DNA of 40,288 nucleotides, from positions 1 through 40,288 of the forward strand of contig JACRDS010000050.1 of assembly GCA_016212825.1 (NCBI GenBank), in the 5' to 3' direction. Of this stretch, positions 2,788-14,496 are shown piece by piece. The notes under the pieces were generated by a model. It had not been told where the DNA came from. It was given only the letters and a program-made list of their open reading frames with translations, and searched no databases. A program made the position numbers and the translations under genes. The stretch's first letter is position 1. Each line of letters starts with the position of its first letter. This DNA comes from Elusimicrobiota bacterium (GTDB lineage: Bacteria > Elusimicrobiota > Elusimicrobia > UBA1565 > UBA9628).

Positions 2788-3297
2788 TCATATTCGGGCC
2801 TGGACCTCCCGGACGGAGATATGGCTCTCCGGGTCCCGGAAGGCCTTCTGGACGGGGTCCCAGACCCGGCCGGCCAGGGGGAAGCCCGGCTTCCAGCAGC
2901 GCACCATGTCGTCGCGCGTGGAGAAGGCGAGCTCGTAGTCCAGGGAGTGCCAGACCGACTTGGGCTTGGTGGGGCAGGCCTCCTGGCAGAGGCCGCAGAA
3001 ATTGCACTTGCCCAGGTCCAAGGAGTACCATTCCGCCTTGGGGACCCGCTTCTTGGTCTCGGGATGGGTCTGGGCCTCCAGGGCGATGCAGGCGGAGGGG
3101 CAGGCCTTGGCGCAGAGACCGCAGGCGATGCAGGTGGCGGCGTCGAAGAGCAGGAGGCCCCGGAATCGCTCGTAGGGCACGAGCTTCTCCGTGGGGTACT
3201 GCACCGTGACCGAGGGCTTGAAGAGGTAGCGCAGGGTGATCCAGAGCCCTTCGCAGAAGGCCCAGGAGGCTGAGGAGACTTCCTTGAAGTAGCCCAT
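2788..3297 (-). CDS. nuoI: NADH-quinone oxidoreductase subunit I (2x 4Fe-4S)
   Basis: Peripheral-arm subunit of complex I carrying clusters N6a and N6b, which pass electrons towards NuoB. 169 residues. Two ferredoxin motifs are intact: C56-x2-C59-x2-C62-x3-C66-P and C98-x2-C101-x2-C104-x3-C108-P. The N-terminal amphipathic region (FCEGLWITLRYLFKPSVTVQYP) is typical of the family. The ATG at 3297 overlaps the nuoH stop (ATGA). The upstream extension of the frame is a shadow of nuoH. Confidence 0.97.
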   Translation of the reverse strand: MGYFKEVSSASWAFCEGLWITLRYLFKPSVTVQYPTEKLVPYERFRGLLLFDAATCIACGLCAKACPSACIALEAQTHPETKKRVPKAEWYSLDLGKCNFCGLCQEACPTKPKSVWHSLDYELAFSTRDDMVRCWKPGFPLAGRVWDPVQKAFRDPESHISVREVQARI

Positions 3298-4574
3298 CAG
3301 CGCAGCCCCCAGCCGCGCTGCATGAGGAAGAGCAGGATCCCGGCGAAGGCGATGTTGGCGAAGGACCAGGGCAGCAGGAACTTCCAGTTGAAGTCCATGA
3401 GCTGGTCCACGCGCAGGCGGGGGAAGGTCCAGCGGAACCAGAGGAAGACGAACATCATGAGCATGGCCTTGCCGGTCATCCAGATCCAGCTCGGGATGCC
3501 GACCAGCCAGGGCAGGGGCGCGGCCCCGCCCCCGAGGAAGAAGACCGCCAGAAGGAAGGAGGAGAGCAGGACGTAGCCGTATTCCATGAGGAAGAACAGG
3601 GACCACTTCATGCCCGAGAACTCGGTGTGGAAGCCGGCCACCAGCTCGGACTCGGCCTCCGGGATGTCGAAGGGGGTGCGGTTGGTCTCGGCCACCGAGG
3701 CGATGAGGAAGAACAGGAAGGCCAGCTGGCCCACCACCGGGTAGAACACGAACCAGCGCGGAAGGAAGCCGAACCAGTAGCCGGCCTGGGCCGCGTCGAT
3801 GACCGCCAGGTCCAAGGAGCCCGCGAACATGAGCACCGGGACCACGGAGAAGCCCCGGGGCAGCTCGTAGCTCACGATCTGGGCCGCGGCGCGCAGGCCG
3901 CCGAGCAAAGAGTACTTGTTGCCCGAGGCCCAGCCCGCCATGACCACGCCGATGACCGAGATCCCGGCGAAGGCGAAGATGTAGAGGACCCCCACGTCGA
4001 GCTTGGCCGCGGCCAGCTCCGTGCCGAAGAGCACCGGGGCGAAGGCCATGACGCAGGGCGCGATGGCCACGACGGGGGCCAGCGTGTGCATGACCTGGTC
4101 GGCCGCGGCCGGGGTCACGTCCTCTTTGAGGAGCAGCTTGACGGTGTCGAGCAAGGTCTGGGCCCAGCCGTGGAAGCCGCCCGCGTACATGGGCCCCACG
4201 CGGGACTGGATGTGGGCCGAGATCTTGCGCTCCCACCACACGGCCCAGAGGCCGTTGGCCACGATGACGCCGATGACGCAGCCGAGCTTGATGAGCACCC
4301 AGGCCCAGGCGACCGCGGCCGGGGGCAGGCCCGAGCGGTTGAGCAGGGCCAGGAGCTTCTCCCCCCATCGCGCCAGCTCGCCGACGCCGGCGCCTATGGC
4401 TAAGAGGCCGATGATGATGCCGGCCAGCCACAGCGCGCCGGCCCGATAGCGGGGCAAAGACCAGGGGCTCTTCCAGAGCTCGGTGGGCCAGTAGCGCGTG
4501 TCGGTCAGCAGGCGCCCCCCCGCCTTGCGGTTGAGGACGGGCTGCGGATAGGCCGGCTTCTCCGCCGCGCTCAC
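3297..4574 (-). CDS. nuoH: NADH-quinone oxidoreductase subunit H
   Basis: Membrane subunit forming much of the quinone-binding chamber of complex I, 425 residues with about eight or nine helices. Recognisable blocks are WWERKISAHIQSRVGPMYAG (the conserved E-R-K-I...Q-R-G/V-GP segment), KEDVTPAAADQ, the YSLLGGLRAAAQIVSYELP block and AETNRTPFDIPEAESELVAG. The start is taken as GTG at 4574: it overlaps the nuoD stop (GTGA) and no ATG gives the full N-terminus. An N-terminal extension of about 45 residues precedes the first helix. The gene follows nuoD directly, where nuoE, F and G stand in 14-gene nuo operons. Confidence 0.95.
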   Translation of the reverse strand: MSAAEKPAYPQPVLNRKAGGRLLTDTRYWPTELWKSPWSLPRYRAGALWLAGIIIGLLAIGAGVGELARWGEKLLALLNRSGLPPAAVAWAWVLIKLGCVIGVIVANGLWAVWWERKISAHIQSRVGPMYAGGFHGWAQTLLDTVKLLLKEDVTPAAADQVMHTLAPVVAIAPCVMAFAPVLFGTELAAAKLDVGVLYIFAFAGISVIGVVMAGWASGNKYSLLGGLRAAAQIVSYELPRGFSVVPVLMFAGSLDLAVIDAAQAGYWFGFLPRWFVFYPVVGQLAFLFFLIASVAETNRTPFDIPEAESELVAGFHTEFSGMKWSLFFLMEYGYVLLSSFLLAVFFLGGGAAPLPWLVGIPSWIWMTGKAMLMMFVFLWFRWTFPRLRVDQLMDFNWKFLLPWSFANIAFAGILLFLMQRGWGLR

Positions 4575-5704
4575 CGGTCCACCTCGCCCAGCACGATGTC
4601 GAAGGAGCCCAGCACCGCGATGACATCCGCGACTTTCTTGCCCACCAGGATGTCCTGCAGGATGGCCAGGTTGATGAAGCAGGGGGCGCGCACGTGCAGC
4701 CGGTAGGGGGCGGTCCCGCCGTCGGAGACCAGGAAGATGCCCAGGTCGCCGCGCGAGGCCTCCACATGGGCGTAGGCCTCTCCGGCCGGCGGCTTGGGGA
4801 GCTTGGCGATGCCCTTGGCCATGAGGTCTCCGCCGGGAAGCGCCGCCAGGGCGGCCTCCACGATGCGCACGGACTGGCGCATCTCCTGGACCCGGCAGAA
4901 GTAGCGGTCCCAGCAGGAGCCGGTCTCGCCCAGGGGCACGTCGAAATCGTACGTCTCGTAGCCGCAGTAGGGCTCGGACTTGCGCACGTCGTAGGCCGCG
5001 CCCGAGCCGCGCAGGTTCGGCCCGGAGAGGCCCCAGGCCGCGGCCGTCTCCTTCGGGATGACGCCGATGCCTTTGGTGCGGGCCAGGAAGATGGGGTTGA
5101 AGGAGAGCAAGGTGTCGTACTCGTCGAGGCGCGGCTTGAAGAACTCCAGGAACTCCCGGCACTTGGCGGTCCAGTCCGCGTCCACGTCCGAGGCCACGCC
5201 GCCGAGGCGGATGTAGTTGTAGGTCAGGCGCGCGCCGCAGAGGGCCTCGTAGAGGTCGAGGATCATCTCGCGCTCGCGGAAGGCGTAGAGGAACGGGGTG
5301 AAGGCGCCGATGTCGATGCCGTAGGTGCCCAGGAAGATCAGGTGGCTGGCGATGCGGTTGAGTTCGCACGTGATGACGCGCAGGGCCTGGGCCCGCGGCG
5401 GCGCCTGCACGGCCATGAGCTTCTCGGCCGCCAGGCAGAAGGCCAGGTTGTTGGGCATCGCGGAGCAGTAGTCCCAGCGGTCGGTGAGGACCACGCACTG
5501 GTGATAGCTGCGGGTCTCCATGAGCTTCTCGGTGCCCCGGTGCAGGTAGCCGATGTCCGGGAAGGCCTTGGTGATGACCTCCCCGGCCAAGGTCAGGCCC
5601 AGGCGCAGCACCCCGTGCGTGGAGGGGTGCTGGGGCCCCAGGTTGACGAACATGGTGTCCATCTCGAGGCCCGGGCCGCTCACCAGAGGCTCTTCAGTCT
5701 TCAT
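4571..5704 (-). CDS. nuoD: NADH-quinone oxidoreductase subunit D (49-kDa type)
   Basis: Quinone-site subunit of the complex I peripheral arm, 377 residues, ending in the family-typical GEVDR. The quinone-binding histidine (H30 in [13 protein letters not shown]) and tyrosine (Y79 in TDRWDY) are present by comparison with mammalian NDUFS2. R56 in YLHRGTEKL aligns with the NDUFS2 arginine that NDUFAF7 dimethylates; the NDUFAF7 homologue is encoded in this same operon. The start overlaps the end of nuoC by 11 bases, and the gene is separate from nuoC, not a nuoCD fusion. Confidence 0.97.
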
Positions 5705-6263
5705 CGTAGGCGTCCTTCTCGTGGGCGTAGTCCTTGCGCAGGGGGTGGCCTTTGAGGAAATCGGGGGTCAGGATCTTGGTCAGGTTGGGATGGCCGGAGA
5801 AGCGCACGCCCAGCAGGTCGAAGGCCTCGCGTTCCTGCCAGTCCGCGGCCGCGAACAGGCTCGTGAGGCTGGGCACCTCGGCGTTGTCGCGCGGGACCTC
5901 CAGGCGCAGGAAGACCTTCTGCCCGGTCTGGAGGTTCCCGAAGGACCAGAGCATGTCCAGGACCGGGCGGTAGGCGATGCCGGCGCCCGCGGCCGGGGCC
6001 ACGGGCGGGGGCGGGGCCTTCTTGGTGAAGGGGCTGGGGTTGGCGCTGGAGACGAATCCCGCCAGGCTCACCGGGCCCAGCCAGTCCACGGCCGTGACCA
6101 TCTCCAGATAGGCGAAGCCCAGCTCGTCCTTGAGGATGCGCGCCGCGGCCAGGATGTCCGCCGGCGCGGCCAGCCGGAGCGTGGGATAGTCCTTGACCGG
6201 CGAGGCCGCGGACTCGGCCCTGGGCAAGGCGGCCAGGAGCCTGGCCACGGGGTCGGGCTTCAA
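5694..6263 (-). CDS. nuoC: NADH-quinone oxidoreductase subunit C (30-kDa type)
   Basis: Peripheral-arm structural subunit of complex I, 189 residues. The C-terminal signature is clear: [20 protein letters not shown] followed by [15 protein letters not shown]. An alanine/proline-rich insert lies at about residues 78-97 ([15 protein letters not shown]), between the strand-rich N-terminal part and the LRLEVP block; such an insert is not typical and probably forms a surface loop. The ATG at 6263 overlaps the nuoB stop by four bases. Confidence 0.94.
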
Positions 6264-6820
6264 GCCGCCTCCCCGGTCAGGTCGCGGCTGCCCTTCTCGG
6301 CCTGAGCGGTCGCGCCGCCGCCGCGTTCGAGCTTCATGCCCATGATCTTCTTCTGCAGCTCCATGAAGCCGTAGATGAGGGCCTCGGGCCGGGGCGGGCA
6401 GCCCGGCACGTAGACGTCCACGGGCACGATGCGGTCCACGCCCTTGACCACGGAATAGGAGTCGTAATAGGGGCCGCCGCAGCTGGCGCAGCTGCCCATG
6501 GCGATGACGAAGCGGGGCTCCGGCATCTGGTGGTAGATCTCCACGATGGGGGCGGCCATCTTCTTGGTGACCGTCCCGGCGATGAGCAGGAGGTCGGCCT
6601 GCCGCGGGCTGGGGCGCGGGATGACGCCGAAGCGGTCGAAGTCGAAGCGGCCGGCGTAGGCCACCATCATCTCGATGGCGCAGCAGGCCAGGCCGAAGGT
6701 GAGCGGCCAGACCGAGTACTTGCGGCCCAAGTCGACGATGTAGTCGGTGCTGGTCAGCAGGACCTGGCCGCCCGGCACGGCCTTGGCCACCACCGGGAAC
6801 TTGTCGAGGACTATTCCCAA
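6260..6820 (-). CDS. nuoB: NADH-quinone oxidoreductase subunit B (cluster N2)
   Basis: Carries the terminal 4Fe-4S cluster N2 next to the quinone site. The ligand pattern is intact: the tandem cysteines of [11 protein letters not shown], the cysteine of MGSCASCGG and that of [14 protein letters not shown]. There is no ATG near the expected N-terminus. The best start is TTG at 6820, which follows AAGGGAG by seven bases and lies inside the 3' end of nuoA, giving 186 residues ([14 protein letters not shown]...). An internal GTG a few codons on is possible but lacks a ribosome site. The tail after residue 165 is Gly/Ala-rich and non-conserved. Confidence 0.95.
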
Positions 6821-7167
6821 ACCAGGGCTCCCTTGCGCCAGGCGAAGAGCAGCCCCAGGAAGAGGACGGCCAGGAAGACCGCCATCTCGGCCAGGGCCAG
6901 GGTCCCGACCTCCCGGACCGTGACCGCCCAGGGATAGACGTAGAGGATCTCGACGTCGAAGATCACGAAGAGCAGGGCGAAGACATAGAAGCGGATGTTG
7001 AGCTTCACCTCGCTGGAGCCGGTGGGCTTGATGCCGCACTCGTAGGTGCTGAGCTTGCGGGCGTAGGGCAGGCTGGGGCGCAGGAGCTTGGCCGCGACGA
7101 GGGCCCCGGCGCCGAACGCGACCCCGACGCAGACGAACAGGAAGACGACGACGAACGGGCTCAGCAT
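6811..7167 (-). CDS. nuoA: NADH-quinone oxidoreductase subunit A
   Basis: Small membrane subunit of complex I, 118 residues, three helices at about 4-28, 62-82 and 88-110. The loop signature [20 protein letters not shown] and the [12 protein letters not shown] block are both present; the loop cysteine (C44) is conserved in the family. The ATG at 7167 lies seven bases inside the end of the upstream methyltransferase gene. Everything upstream in this frame is a shadow of that gene. Confidence 0.96.
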
Positions 7168-8228
7168 CGGCTGACCCGCTTCGTCTGCACGAGGACTTTG
7201 AAGGCTTCGCCCATGCCTTCGGGGTGGACCAGGGTCTTGAGCTTGGCCCGGTCGGTGACCGTGCCCGCGTCCGAGCCGGCCGGGAGCCAGTCCAGGATGC
7301 CGCAGTCGAGGAGGAAGCGGGCCATGGAGGTGAAGGAGGCGCAGCGCAGGCCGAGGCCCTCCCCTTCCTCTATGAGGGCGGAGAAGTCCACCGGGCAGGT
7401 GAGGTCGCGGTCCCCGGGGTCGGCGAGGAGCCGGGAGCCCACGGTGTGGAGATGGTAGCTGCGCGGGGTGTTGACGTCTCCGGGGGCGAAGCGCTTGCCG
7501 TAGTCGATGGTGGCCAGGACCCCGCATTCCAGGCGCCCGGCCGCCTCGCGCAGCCAGGAGCGGGCCTCCAGGCAGACGGCATGGCGCCGGCCTTCCTGCA
7601 GAGTGTCGGCCACGGCCCGCGCGTGCGGCTCGAGTCCGCGGGTGGAGAGCTCTCCCAGGACCGCGTCGCCGGCTCCGTCGGTGTAGAGCTCCAGGACCCG
7701 TCCGCCGCGCTTCTCCAGGACATGGAAGGGCAGGGCGTCGACCAACTCGTTGGAGAGGAACACGCCGCGGAACGCGGGGACCTCGGCCAGCCGTTCGCAG
7801 GCCAGCACCCGGCCGGGAACGTCCTCGAAGCCGGCGAGGCTCTCCAGGAGGCGCTCCCGGCTGCGCTCCACCAGGACCCAGCAGAGGTCCGCGGCCAGCT
7901 CGGGCCGCTCGCGGTTGAGGCCCTCGCGCAGCTGGCGCGCCAAGAGGCCCGAGCCGGAGCCCATCTCCACGATGGTGTAGGGCGGCGGCACGCTGCGGGA
8001 GCGCAGCTCGTCGAGCCACTTGGCCAGGGCCCGGGCCAAAGACATGCCGAAGGCGGGGTGCAGCTCGGGCGCGGTGTAGAAGTGCTCGGTCGGCCGGCGC
8101 CGGGCGTAGAAGCCGCGCTCTGGATGGTAGAGCGCGGTCTCGCAGAATTCCCGGAAGGTGCGCAGGCGGCCGCCGTGAGTCTGCTGGCGGCCGCTCCGGA
8201 CGGACCGGTCGCGTTCCTGGACCCTCAT
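7161..8228 (-). CDS. SAM-dependent methyltransferase, MidA/NDUFAF7 family
   Basis: About 355 residues. The N-terminal family block is present ([17 protein letters not shown], then [19 protein letters not shown]). It is followed by motif [17 protein letters not shown], for S-adenosylmethionine, and the family hallmark [16 protein letters not shown]. Mitochondrial members (NDUFAF7) symmetrically dimethylate an arginine of NDUFS2, the NuoD homologue, during early complex I assembly. Here the gene overlaps nuoA by seven bases, which strongly suggests the same role (inference). Starts at ATG 8228 or GTG 8234 are both possible, neither with a strong ribosome site. No other methyltransferase family fits as well. 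Confidence 0.9.
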
Positions 8229-8240
8229 GCCCACGACTGC

Positions 8241-8260
8241 GGTCCCGCGCGAGCGGGGCC
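8241..8260 (-). other. GC-rich stem-loop between histone and methyltransferase genes
   Basis: GGCCCCGC-TCGC-GCGGGACC on the minus strand forms an 8-bp stem with one mismatch. It sits in the short gap before the methyltransferase start. No T-run follows, so it is not a classical terminator; it could slow readthrough or protect the mRNA. The evidence is weak. Confidence 0.3.
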
Positions 8261-8281
8261 GTGGAGTCTTTTAGGGGATGA

Positions 8282-8464
8282 CTACTGCAGGTCCTCGGCG
8301 CCGAGGGTCTTCTTCTTGCCGTCGGCCTTGACGCGCTCGATGGAGGCGCTGACCATGGCGTTGATCTTGCCGGAGAGGGCTTCCACGTAGTCGCCGCCGG
8401 TGCGGAAGCCGGCATCCTTGACCATCTTCTTGACCTTGCTCACCACGACCATAACCTCGGACAT
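8282..8464 (-). CDS. Bacterial histone-fold protein (Bdellovibrio Bd0055-like)
   Basis: 60 residues, starting MSEVMVVVSKVKKMVKDAGF and ending KTLGAEDLQ. The pattern is that of a minimal histone fold. A short helix 1 (SEVMVVVSKVKKMVKDAG) is followed by loop 1 (FRTGGD), a long helix 2 (about 26-48, YVEALSGKINAMVSASIERVKAD), a basic loop 2 (GKKKT) and the start of a short helix 3 (GAEDLQ). The K-(T)-(L)-x-A-E-D ending matches the loop-2/helix-3 signature of archaeal histones (K-T-I-x-A-x-D-I). The opening V-VVxSKVKK matches the single-histone-domain proteins known from Bdellovibrio. The frame is open for 33 codons upstream, but ATG 8464 has AGGAGG six bases ahead, so the short form is real. It probably binds and compacts DNA as a dimer. 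Conserved position just ahead of the methyltransferase/nuo operon suggests co-transcription. Confidence 0.85.
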   Translation of the reverse strand: MSEVMVVVSKVKKMVKDAGFRTGGDYVEALSGKINAMVSASIERVKADGKKKTLGAEDLQ

Positions 8465-8508
8465 GAATTCCTCCTGGAAAACTTCGGCGTTGTCAAAGAA
8501 AGGCGATA

Positions 8509-8538
8509 TATATAATGAAATACGGAAGGAGCTGTCAA
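8509..8538 (-). promoter_or_regulatory. Sigma70-type promoter of the histone gene (and perhaps the nuo operon)
   Basis: On the minus strand TTGACA (8538-8533) is followed after 18 bases by TATATA (8514-8509), in an AT-rich island within a very GC-rich region. The predicted start gives a leader of about 35-40 bases before AGGAGG and the histone ATG. A consensus -35 suggests strong expression, as expected for an abundant chromatin protein. Confidence 0.7.
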
Positions 8539-9307: not shown

Positions 9308-9324
9308 GAGGGAATGCGAGATCG

Positions 9325-9397
9325 TGGCGCGGGGTGGAATCGAACCACCGACCTATCGCTTATGAAACGACCGCTCTAACCTCTGAGCTACCGCGCC
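9325..9397 (-). tRNA. tRNA-Met (CAT), elongator type
   Basis: 73 bases with acceptor GGCGCGG/CCGCGCC, D-stem GCTC/GAGC, anticodon loop TTCATAA giving CAT, and T-arm GGTGG-TTCGATT-CCACC. The paired first base (G1-C72) argues against an initiator tRNA. The body resembles elongator tRNA-Met rather than tRNA-Ile(CAU), but the two cannot be separated with certainty by eye. CCA is not encoded. Confidence 0.93.
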
Positions 9398-10281: not shown

Positions 10282-13200
10282 ATGTCCAAAAACCACCGCC
10301 TCAGCGGCGGCGCGGCGTTGTTGTTCTCGTCCCTCTTCTGGCTCTGTCCCGGACAGGGCGCCGCGGCTCCCCCCAGGAGGCGCGCCGGCACGGAGCCAAC
10401 GGACCGGATCATCGTCAAGTTCCGCGACCAGAGCCGGATGCGGGCCGCCTCCTTGAGCGCCGCCTCCCTGGCGCCATTGAACGCCCGCGCGGGCGTGGCG
10501 CTGGCGCACCATCGGCGCATGTCCGGAGACGCCCAGGTCCTCCGTCTGCCGAGTCGCATGCCTTTGGAGCAGGTTGAGGCCGTCCTGGACAAGATCCGTC
10601 GGGACCCTTCCGTGGAGTACGCGGACCCTGTGCGCCGGCGCGTGCCGCAACTCAACCCCAACGACACCCAGTACGGCAGCCAGTGGCACTACACCGCCCC
10701 GGCCTCCAATGCCGGAGGCGCGAACCTCCCGACGGCCTGGGACATCACCACCGGCAGCTCCAGCGTGGTGGTGGCCGTCCTGGACACGGGCTGGCTCAAC
10801 CATGCCGACCTCGCCGGACGCAGCGTCGGCGGCTACTGCTTCATCAGAGACTCCACGATGGCCAACAATGCGAGCTGCACCCCGGGACAGGCCGTCAGCG
10901 ACCCGTCCGACACCGGCGATTTCATAACCCTGGGCGACATCGCTTATTTTCAGAGCACCTATGGTTGGAATAGTTGCGGCTGCGGCCAGTACGGGGACCA
11001 GCCCTGCAACAGTTCCTGGCACGGGACCCATGTCTCCGGCACCATCGGCGCCGCGAGCAACAACGGCGCGGGTGTGGCGGGGGTCAACTGGGTCTCCAAG
11101 ATACTCCCGGTCCGGGTCCTCGGCAAATGCGGCGGCACGGACGACGATATCATCGACGGAATACGCTGGGCCGCGGGCCTGGCGGTCTCCGGCCTCCCCA
11201 CCAACCCCAACCCGGCCAAGGTCATCAACATGAGCCTCGGCGGAGCCGGGGCCTGCCCGGCGTCGTGGCAGTCCGCCATCGACGACGCGGTCAACGCGGG
11301 GGCGACCGTGGTCGTGGCCGCGGGCAACGACTGGACCAACATGGACGGGACCCCCTACACGCCGGGCAGCTGCAGCAATGTCGTCTCGGTGGCCGCCGTG
11401 GAGCCGGCCGGCAGCCTGGCCTGGTACAGCAATTTCGGAAGCGCCGTGGCGCTTTCCGCGCCAGGCGGGCAGACCTGCTATGACTGGGATGTCGACGGCA
11501 ACTGCATAGACAGCCGGCCCACCTCCGGCGTGCTCTCCACCGGCGATTCCGGCACGCAGGGGCCGTCCAACGACAACGTCTATACCTATAAGCAAGGCAC
11601 CAGCATGGCCGCCCCGCACGTGGCCGGGGTGGCATCCCTCATGGTCTCGACCAACACCTCCCTGACGCCGTCCCAGGTCAGGAGCATGCTGCGCTCCACG
11701 GCCCGCAGCTTCCCTGATTCGACCTGCAACACCGGCATCTGCGGGGCCGGGCTGCTCGACGCCTCGGCCGCGGTCCGGGAGGCCCTGCGCCCCAGCGACC
11801 TCCCGTCCAACATCACCGCGGCCACCCAGGGCACCAGCTCCATCACCTGGACCTGGGGCAGCGTGCCGCGGGCCCTCTACTACAACGTCTACTTCGGGAC
11901 CAACCCCACCCAACTGGCCGGCAGCACGTTCGGCAGCGCGACCAACCAGGCGTTCACCCTCAACTTCCCCTCCAACACCCTCACCAACGTCATCGTCAAG
12001 GCCGTCAACACGGGCGGCGAAGGGCCCGGGGGCGCCTCGCCGAGCACCACCACCCTGGCCGCCCCCCTGACCTCCGTGAACTCGGCCGACGCGCACATCA
12101 CCAGCATCACCGTCACCTGGACCCCGTGCCTGGTCAACGCGTGCGCCGGCTACGTCCTGCAGGCCTCCCCCAACGCCGACTTCTCCCCGCCGCTCTTCTC
12201 CAGCGTCACCTTCAGCTACACCGTGGGCCGGCTCCAGGTCTTCGGCCTCTCCAAACTGACCGACTACTACCTGCGCCTGGCCACCTTGAACTGGTCCAGC
12301 GGCCCGAGCTTCTACAGGCTCCCTGGGACCGTGCAGACCCTCACGGACCTGGTCCCTCCGGGGCTCGGAGCGCCGCCTTTCTCCAACATCGCGGAGCAGG
12401 CCATCCGCTTCAACTGGACCAGCAGCGGCAACCCCTCGCCCGTGACCTACCAGGCCGACGTCTCGAGCATGCCGGGCTACATCCCCCTGTCCGGGTCGCA
12501 GTCGGGCAGCGAACTCTTCACCGCCCTCTTCTCCGGCCTGCTCCCCAACACCAGCTACTACTTCAAGGTCCGCGTCCTGGGAGGCGGCGCCACCACCTAC
12601 GCCGGCCCGACCGCGACGCTGGCCGCCGCGCCCGCGGCCGCGGCCGCCCCATTCTTGGCCGTCTACGTCAGTTCCCTGACCATGGCGTGGGCCGCCAACG
12701 GCAACGCCCCGGACACCCTGTACCAGGCCGAGCTGTCCTCGGATGCCTTCTCCCATATCGCGGTCTCCTCGCTCACCCGCAACACCTATGCCGCCTTCCC
12801 GCCGGCTCTGGACTCGAACACGGCCTACTCCGCGCGGGTCTTTGCCCTCAACCGCACGGGCGGAGCCTCCGCGCCCTACGTCCTGGGCTCCACCCTGACG
12901 CTGGTCCAGTCCCCCGGGGGGCCCTATTCCTTCTCCGGCCTGGGCTCCTCCGGCTTCGCCTTCTCCTTCACCGGCAACAACCCCTACCCGACCCAGTACG
13001 TGGTGCGCGCCTGCCTCTCTCCCTCCTGCTCCTCCGTGGCCGCCTCCTCGAGCACTTTGGCGGAGTCGGCCGCGTTCTCCGGCCTGCTCTCCAACGCGAC
13101 CTATTACGTGTCCGCGGCGGCGCTCAACGGGGCCGGCACTCCCACGCTCTACACCGCGGCCCAGGCCACGGCCACGCTGGCGGTCGCGCCGGCAGCGCTC

Positions 13201-14496
13201 GCCTCCCCCGTGACCAACCGCAGCAGCGCGACCTTGGGCTTCTCCTGGAGCGCGGGGACCCTCTCGCCCGGGACCACCTACCTGGCCGAGGTCTCCAGCT
13301 CCGCGTCCTTCGCCTGGGCCGTGCAGAGCTCCGCCACCATGAACACCAGGGCCCTGTTCACCGGCCTCCAGCCCAACACTCCCTACTACGGGAGGGTGCG
13401 CGCGCTCAGCGTGAGCCAGGCCCCGGACGGGCCCACCCTGGACGCCGGCGGCTTTGCCGCGACACTGCCCCTGCCGCCTCCGGCGGCCGCCTTCCAGTCG
13501 GTCTTCTTCACCAGCGCCACCGCGGTCTGGCAGGCCCTGCCCCTGTCGCCTTCCAGCGCCGCCTGCCAGGGCTACCGGCTCGAGCTCTCCGCCTCCCCCG
13601 GCTTCACCGGGACCGTCTACTCCAGCGCGGTCGCGCCCGGCGTCTCCACGGCCACGCTGACCGGACTCGGCTACGCGACGGTCTACTACGCGCGCCTGGC
13701 CTCGCTCAACGCCGAGGGGCAGGGGAACTACATATCGCTGGCCTCGACCGCCACCGCCGCGCCCCCCTTCTCCTCGGGCACGGTGAGCGGCTCCGCCGGG
13801 CTGACCCTGCTGCTGCCGCCCGCCTTCCCGGAGCTGAGCACGGTGACGCTGACGGTGCCCGTCGGCGCCTTCCCGGCGGGCACCAGCATCAGCGCCGTGG
13901 CGCAGATGACGACCGACCTGACCGCGGCGCGCTCCAACCAGGTGGCGGGCATGACGCCCTTCGGCGCCAACGTGGGGCTCGAGCTCTCGGCCGGGGGGCT
14001 GCAGCCGGCCGTGCCCGTGCTGCTGAGCCTGGACTACGACCCGGCGCGCGTGCCGCTGGGCCAGGACCCCAAGACCCTGCGCCTGTTCACCTATGACGCG
14101 GCTGGGGGGCAGTGGACCATGCTCCTCTCCCAGGTCGACGTCCGGGCGCGCAAGCTGACGGCCCTGCTCTACCACTTCTCGCTCTTCGCGCCCTTCTTCG
14201 TGACGGCCGGGACGGACCTCTCCGCGGTGCAGGCCTTCCCGCAGCCCTGGGAGATCGGCGACGCGGCCAGCCCCTACTGGGCCGCCGCCCTGCAGTTCAC
14301 CAACATGCCCGCCGACGCCACCGTCAAGATCTTCACCGTGACGGGGGAGCTCGTGGTCGAGGAGGCGGCTGCCGGGGGAGTGTTCGCCTGGAACGGCAGC
14401 AACCGGTTCGGCCGCAAGGCGGCCTCCGGGACCTACCTCGTGGTCGTCTCGGCCGGCGGCGGCACCATGGTGCGCCGGGTGGTGCTCATCCGATGA
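10282..14496 (+). CDS. Secreted subtilisin-like serine protease with Fn3-like repeats and FlgD-like C-terminal domain
   Basis: 1404 residues. A signal peptide (about 8-28) and an I9-like propeptide (about 38-125, with DRIIVKF and DPSVEYADP) precede an S8 catalytic domain with the complete triad. These are D168 (VVVAVLDTG), H247 (SWHGTHVSG) and S441 (GTSMAAPHVAG), with oxyanion N349 (VVAAGND). About 80 residues, including a Cys-rich stretch (CGCGQYGDQPC), lie between D and H. Residues from about 510 to 1165 hold roughly seven fibronectin-III-like units, each with a TYYxRVxALN-type strand. A beta-rich ZU5/big-like segment follows (about 1170-1300). The last 85 residues (VKIFTVTGELV...GSNRFGRKAASGTYLVVV) form a FlgD-like Ig fold of the kind found as a C-terminal sorting domain. 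It probably degrades extracellular protein. The PorV-like gene overlaps its stop. Confidence 0.93.
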   Translation: MSKNHRLSGGAALLFSSLFWLCPGQGAAAPPRRRAGTEPTDRIIVKFRDQSRMRAASLSAASLAPLNARAGVALAHHRRMSGDAQVLRLPSRMPLEQVEAVLDKIRRDPSVEYADPVRRRVPQLNPNDTQYGSQWHYTAPASNAGGANLPTAWDITTGSSSVVVAVLDTGWLNHADLAGRSVGGYCFIRDSTMANNASCTPGQAVSDPSDTGDFITLGDIAYFQSTYGWNSCGCGQYGDQPCNSSWHGTHVSGTIGAASNNGAGVAGVNWVSKILPVRVLGKCGGTDDDIIDGIRWAAGLAVSGLPTNPNPAKVINMSLGGAGACPASWQSAIDDAVNAGATVVVAAGNDWTNMDGTPYTPGSCSNVVSVAAVEPAGSLAWYSNFGSAVALSAPGGQTCYDWDVDGNCIDSRPTSGVLSTGDSGTQGPSNDNVYTYKQGTSMAAPHVAGVASLMVSTNTSLTPSQVRSMLRSTARSFPDSTCNTGICGAGLLDASAAVREALRPSDLPSNITAATQGTSSITWTWGSVPRALYYNVYFGTNPTQLAGSTFGSATNQAFTLNFPSNTLTNVIVKAVNTGGEGPGGASPSTTTLAAPLTSVNSADAHITSITVTWTPCLVNACAGYVLQASPNADFSPPLFSSVTFSYTVGRLQVFGLSKLTDYYLRLATLNWSSGPSFYRLPGTVQTLTDLVPPGLGAPPFSNIAEQAIRFNWTSSGNPSPVTYQADVSSMPGYIPLSGSQSGSELFTALFSGLLPNTSYYFKVRVLGGGATTYAGPTATLAAAPAAAAAPFLAVYVSSLTMAWAANGNAPDTLYQAELSSDAFSHIAVSSLTRNTYAAFPPALDSNTAYSARVFALNRTGGASAPYVLGSTLTLVQSPGGPYSFSGLGSSGFAFSFTGNNPYPTQYVVRACLSPSCSSVAASSSTLAESAAFSGLLSNATYYVSAAALNGAGTPTLYTAAQATATLAVAPAALASPVTNRSSATLGFSWSAGTLSPGTTYLAEVSSSASFAWAVQSSATMNTRALFTGLQPNTPYYGRVRALSVSQAPDGPTLDAGGFAATLPLPPPAAAFQSVFFTSATAVWQALPLSPSSAACQGYRLELSASPGFTGTVYSSAVAPGVSTATLTGLGYATVYYARLASLNAEGQGNYISLASTATAAPPFSSGTVSGSAGLTLLLPPAFPELSTVTLTVPVGAFPAGTSISAVAQMTTDLTAARSNQVAGMTPFGANVGLELSAGGLQPAVPVLLSLDYDPARVPLGQDPKTLRLFTYDAAGGQWTMLLSQVDVRARKLTALLYHFSLFAPFFVTAGTDLSAVQAFPQPWEIGDAASPYWAAALQFTNMPADATVKIFTVTGELVVEEAAAGGVFAWNGSNRFGRKAASGTYLVVVSAGGGTMVRRVVLIR

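Follow-up and report, generated by a model that had tools for sequence, protein, structure and literature searches.

The window analysed here is a 40,288-nucleotide stretch of DNA, contig C181 of a 3.56 Mb assembly of an uncultured Elusimicrobiota bacterium that comprises 186 contigs and is 86% complete. An open reading frame on its minus strand (8282-8464), with an ATG start and a TAG stop, encodes a 60-residue product, MSEVMVVVSKVKKMVKDAGFRTGGDYVEALSGKINAMVSASIERVKADGKKKTLGAEDLQ, which its sequence matches, predicted fold and homologues place among the alpha3 'bacterial-dimer'-type histones. Homologues with about 60-93% identity are spread through the class and an alignment of 35 family sequences contains 18 invariant columns, which on comparative grounds make this frame a real gene. 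An earlier note on this DNA had described a methyltransferase and nuo genes within about 50 bases of the histone, and this arrangement is indeed what we find. A MidA/NDUFAF7-type methyltransferase gene (7161-8234; PF02636, 1.4e-34), putatively the second gene of an operon, starts either at a GTG at 8234, 47 bases past the histone stop, or at an ATG at 8228, 53 bases past it. It is followed by nuoA (6811-7161; PF00507), nuoB (6260-6811; PF01058), nuoC (5694-6263; PF00329), nuoD (4571-5704; PF00346), nuoH (3297-4571; PF00146), nuoI, a 4Fe-4S ferredoxin-type subunit named by its place in the cluster (2788-3300), nuoJ (2266-2784; PF00499) and nuoK (1955-2269; PF00420), all on the minus strand. The gap between histone and methyltransferase holds a GC-rich inverted repeat (8237-8264), and the hairpin of this gap has a z of -2.4 for 53 bases. 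We rejected this repeat as a histone terminator because it has no T tract on the minus strand and is terminator-like only in the plus direction; the window showed no intrinsic terminator on the coding strand. On the other side of the histone lies a tRNA-Met (CAT) gene at 9324-9397 (-), and 22 of the 34 nuo-linked relatives have a tRNA-Met no more than 1.3 kb upstream.

Upstream of the histone, a -35 hexamer TTGACA (8533-8538, minus strand) matches the consensus at 6/6 positions and is kept in near relatives; an 18-base spacer separates it from a -10 hexamer TATATA (8509-8514, minus strand; 4/6). A Shine-Dalgarno sequence AGGAGG, also reported earlier, occupies 8475-8470 on the same strand and ends 5 bases before the ATG. 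A stricter promoter scan, in which T was required at position 6 of the -10, did not list TTGACA-18-TATATA. Across 57 distinct homologues, 26% had upstream promoter matches scoring at least 10/12; only 1.3% of dinucleotide shuffles reached this score, and sigma-70-like promoters thus occur upstream of homologues more often than by chance. A promoter at this place before the histone is a credible prediction, and a common one among near relatives. The histone had been credited with its own strong promoter, and the enrichment of sigma-70-like sites bears out the promoter, while 'strong' was somewhat generous for a site with a moderate -10 (4/6). A second TTGACA lies in the predicted 5' leader (8491-8496, minus strand), with no evident -10 at the proper distance before the start codon.

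A search of the PDB with the 60-residue sequence matched four distinct sequences, all of them histones: two versions of HBb/Bd0055 from Bdellovibrio (8fvx/8cmp; 1.3e-7, with the alignment beginning at residue 1), HLp from Leptospira (9qt0; 1.2e-6) and HTkC from Thermococcus (9f2c; 3e-5). No Pfam or NCBIfam model matched the protein, and PF00808 (CBFD_NFYB_HMF), the model for archaeal nucleosomal histones, matched neither the protein nor the genome, with control archaea positive. We also searched viral contigs for histone relatives and found none. The AlphaFold monomer model (pLDDT 84.5, pTM 0.57, from a shallow alignment of 35 homologues) has helices at residues 2-17, 24-48 and 56-59, a short-long-short pattern in which the long central helix lies between two loops. 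Its top Foldseek matches were again HLp, HBb and HTkC, with probabilities of 0.99-1.00 and TM scores of 0.69-0.76, and a best E-value of only 3.7e-3 for this short chain. The identification as a bacterial histone, first made from the letters of the DNA, is thus borne out, and a histone fold for the 60-residue protein is well supported by both the sequence matches and the model. By analogy with its relatives, the protein would be expected to dimerize and to bind DNA.

The named genomes that carry homologues are nearly all metagenome assemblies of Elusimicrobia/Elusimicrobiota. Among 57 relatives, the histone query matched 46, of which 45 have the family of the window and one (G042) has a distant paralogue only; across the phylum it matched 62 of 248 sampled genomes. 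The histone was missing from all of the small genomes (1.3-1.7 Mb) of family f12 among the rows listed for the phylum sample, and one member of that family (G054) was also without complex I markers. HU was found in 54 of the 57 relatives, suggesting that the histone normally works beside HU; in the window's own assembly, 86% complete, HU was not found. Five genomes (G010, G015, G021, G025 and G027) carry the histone without a high-scoring nuo cluster, genus g6 has neither, and outside the class the histone lies near NrdR in Endomicrobia. Given the five genomes without nuo and the other neighbours outside the class, the histone does not depend on complex I, and the coupling is a property of the class. 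We also observed, outside the window's class, Rex on one side of the histone and an rpsB-tsf-like cluster on the other (by reading, ribosomal S2, EF-Ts and UMP kinase), in L085:1728-4922 and L079.

The linkage to complex I, for which a high-scoring nuoA served as the marker, was found to be consistent across the class. In all 40 relatives that have both genes, from ten families, nuoA lies 110-1272 bases downstream of the histone on the same strand, in keeping with the earlier placement of the histone at the head of a complex I region. PF02636 is present in 36 of the 57 relatives, never in one that lacks the histone, and in 33 of these 36 it is the gene immediately after the histone. Of the 49 loci in named genomes, 39 have nuoA downstream of the histone; this sample is not independent, since the loci were found via the histone and related genomes have a common history. 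What stands between the two genes in these 39 loci is MidA in 23, a UbiE-type methyltransferase (PF01209) in 12 and neither in 4. In most cases 5-35 bases separate the histone from the gene that follows it, with a median of 20 among the scored MidA gaps; the overlap of stop and start in L047/L067 was set aside because the MidA start is ambiguous. Upstream neighbours vary and include tRNA-Met, a response regulator, a TPR gene, Rex, a biotin ligase and a JAB-type gene. This turnover upstream against a constant order downstream argues for something beyond slow rearrangement in keeping the downstream genes in place. One apparent exception, G042, has a high-scoring nuoA and no family histone, and we set it aside because this nuoA is divergent (40% identical to that of the window) and in another setting, in an assembly that is 77% complete and 6% contaminated. 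Four further genomes with nuo and no histone found (G001, G003, G040 and G052) are uninformative as counterexamples, as their nuo genes lie at or near contig ends.

Given the short gaps and the lack of a T tract in the coding-strand hairpin, the histone and complex I are likely to be co-transcribed, and the order kept in 40/40 relatives suggests that a nucleoid protein and a respiratory chain probably share one message. Cells require far more copies of a nucleoid protein than of complex I. In 19 of the 21 relatives scored, the histone has a stronger predicted Shine-Dalgarno sequence than the gene after it, with medians of -9.5 kcal/mol for the histone and -4.7 kcal/mol for MidA, whose start codons were partly guessed, that of the window included. 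One message could thus plausibly give unequal output, and the earlier suggestion that chromatin protein and respiratory chain levels would be linked if co-transcribed was too simple. We consider it quite probable that this gene encodes an Elusimicrobiota alpha3 'bacterial-dimer' histone, a DNA-coating homodimer, as the first cistron of a complex I operon whose output is made unequal by ribosome-site strength. In such an operon, a sigma-70-like promoter would drive one transcript running from the histone through the methyltransferase (MidA in the window) to nuoA and onward, and the strong ribosome site of the histone followed by a weaker one at the next gene would give, per message, many copies of the histone and few of the complex I subunits. 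The homodimer would coat and bend DNA without sequence preference, contacting it with the surface formed by loops 1 and 2 and with the lysine-lined beginning of helix 1, and would serve as a general nucleoid protein alongside HU. The coupling itself may be of benefit to the cell.

The operon reading has to be weighed against a histone unit of a single gene, transcribed alone from its own promoter, whose neighbourhood is kept by descent only. Nucleoid proteins, alpha3 histones included, are generally found in single-gene operons, with the exception of the RdgC and IHF histones, which lie inside conserved multi-gene operons, the RdgC histone as the first gene (Schwab et al. 2024, PMC11390915); these are different histone types with different partner genes. 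A stand-alone unit would also fit the GC-rich hairpin past the window's histone, the GC-rich repeats that we read in L026 and L055, and the five genomes in which the histone lies elsewhere in the absence of a high-scoring nuo cluster. However, the hairpin has no T tract on the coding strand, the 5-35 base gaps of most relatives leave little space for a terminator, the downstream side is constant while the upstream side reshuffles, and the placement before nuo is kept in 40/40. We therefore regard a histone transcribed by itself as unlikely.

As to the type of histone, bacterial dimers have been defined by helix-1 lysines, an RKTxxxD motif in loop 2 with an R-D clamp, and missing face-to-face (FtF) tetramer residues, with Elusimicrobiota among the hosts (Schwab et al. 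2024, PMC11390915). One such dimer is HBb/Bd0055, an alpha3 histone of Bdellovibrio bacteriovorus (PDB 8fvx, 8cmp, 9ezz, 9f0e), with which the Elusimicrobiota protein shares the helix pattern, a one-turn helix 3, the KT loop-2 motif, the helix-1 lysines and, as had been noticed before, the N-terminus MxEVxVVxSKVKK. The lysines K10, K12 and K16 are invariant in 35 sequences, and across the family there is little or no variation at the equivalents of the HBb DNA contacts (S9, K10, K12, K16, K52, T53 and the loop-1 Thr). Compared with HBb, loop 1 is one residue shorter and loop 2 one residue longer, N22 is replaced by Arg, the chain terminates directly after EDL, and the gene is linked to nuo in this class. 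Loop 2 reads KKTLGAED, keeping the KT and the D, with Lys at the position of the HBb clamp Arg (R51) in 35/35 aligned relatives; L026, one relative beyond the 35, has Arg there. Glu replaces R57, a major DNA contact of HBb, in 35/35, and archaeal HMfB likewise has Glu at this position. With both residues changed in this way, DNA binding may differ from that of HBb, and we file the protein, going by its residues, as a putative bacterial-dimer-type histone with a modified clamp. Elusimicrobiota bacterial-dimer histones have already been published (Hocher et al. 2023, PMC10627809; Schwab et al. 2024, PMC11390915); they are probably the same family as the one described here, and the persistence of histones in Elusimicrobia has been noted (Hocher et al. 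2023, PMC10627809); the Lys-for-Arg clamp is the twist of the present protein.

The protein could instead form an FtF tetramer that wraps about 60 bp of DNA in the manner of HLp. HLp of Leptospira perolatii (PDB 9qt0, a bacterial FtF) and HTkC of Thermococcus kodakarensis (PDB 9f2c, an archaeal FtF) are among the best structural matches, HLp with a common fold, a single-turn helix 3 and, by sequence alignment, a loop 1 of the same length, and HTkC with the same fold and 38% identity in the structural alignment. Yet the FtF tetramer residues of HTkC are not retained, and the R49/N53/R55 network of the HLp tetramer is absent from the family, the aligned positions being K/R44 (or V45), mostly D/E48 (or G49), and K51. 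The R-x3-N-x-R pattern is carried instead by a separate paralogue in some relatives, which makes a tetramer of this kind quite improbable for the window's protein. This second histone, with NGRKTVRxHDF-like ends and the R-x3-N-x-R FtF pattern, occurs in L098, L099, L101, L104 and L105 (G042, G047, G038, G043 and G017) and was not found in the window's genome.

It is less probable still, and only a slim chance in our estimate, that the chief role of the histone is to regulate its own operon, locally or in a redox-linked way, coupling respiration genes to nucleoid state, as the adjacency to Rex in other lineages would then reflect. Rex, an NADH-sensing repressor (PF06971 + PF02629), is encoded immediately before the histone in L041, L046, L064, L069 and L079, and by reading also upstream in L085-L087. 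Against such a role, known relatives bind DNA without sequence preference, the histone lies beside unrelated genes outside the class, and the search for Rex found none in the genome of the window. Adjacency to Rex was also dropped as a general feature, the Rex family being matched in only 2 of the 57 relatives. Likewise, we found nothing beyond adjacency for the idea that MidA methylates the histone. Finally, a small helical protein that resembles a histone by chance would agree with the silence of Pfam and NCBIfam, but with only histones at the top of both the sequence and the structure searches this is extremely improbable.

Bacterial histones are few and have mostly been described as stand-alone genes. 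The neighbourhood here is more interesting than the protein itself. In the openly readable papers searched, the main texts of Hocher et al. 2023 and Schwab et al. 2024 among them, a link between a histone and complex I is nowhere mentioned, and the order of the histone gene before complex I appears to be new and unreported. Its class-wide placement at the head of a probable complex I operon offers a concrete and testable link between chromatin and respiration, and the genomes with and without nuo, and with and without the histone, form a natural set for asking why bacteria keep histones beside HU. A bolder proposal, which we think doubtful, is that respiratory gene expression sets the degree of DNA compaction via the shared message, as does NADH state where Rex is adjacent; if true, this would be a direct, operon-level wiring of chromatin to energy metabolism in a whole bacterial class.

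Two further features were observed in this genome. A second, lower-scoring NuoA/NuoD-like locus is present at G000:C130:8132-10750, and such a locus is common to nearly all relatives, including those without a histone-linked cluster. In the window itself, an open reading frame of 1404 residues on the plus strand (10282-14496) reads like a secreted subtilisin-type protease, with what appear by reading to be fibronectin-like repeats and a sorting-type domain at the C-terminus.
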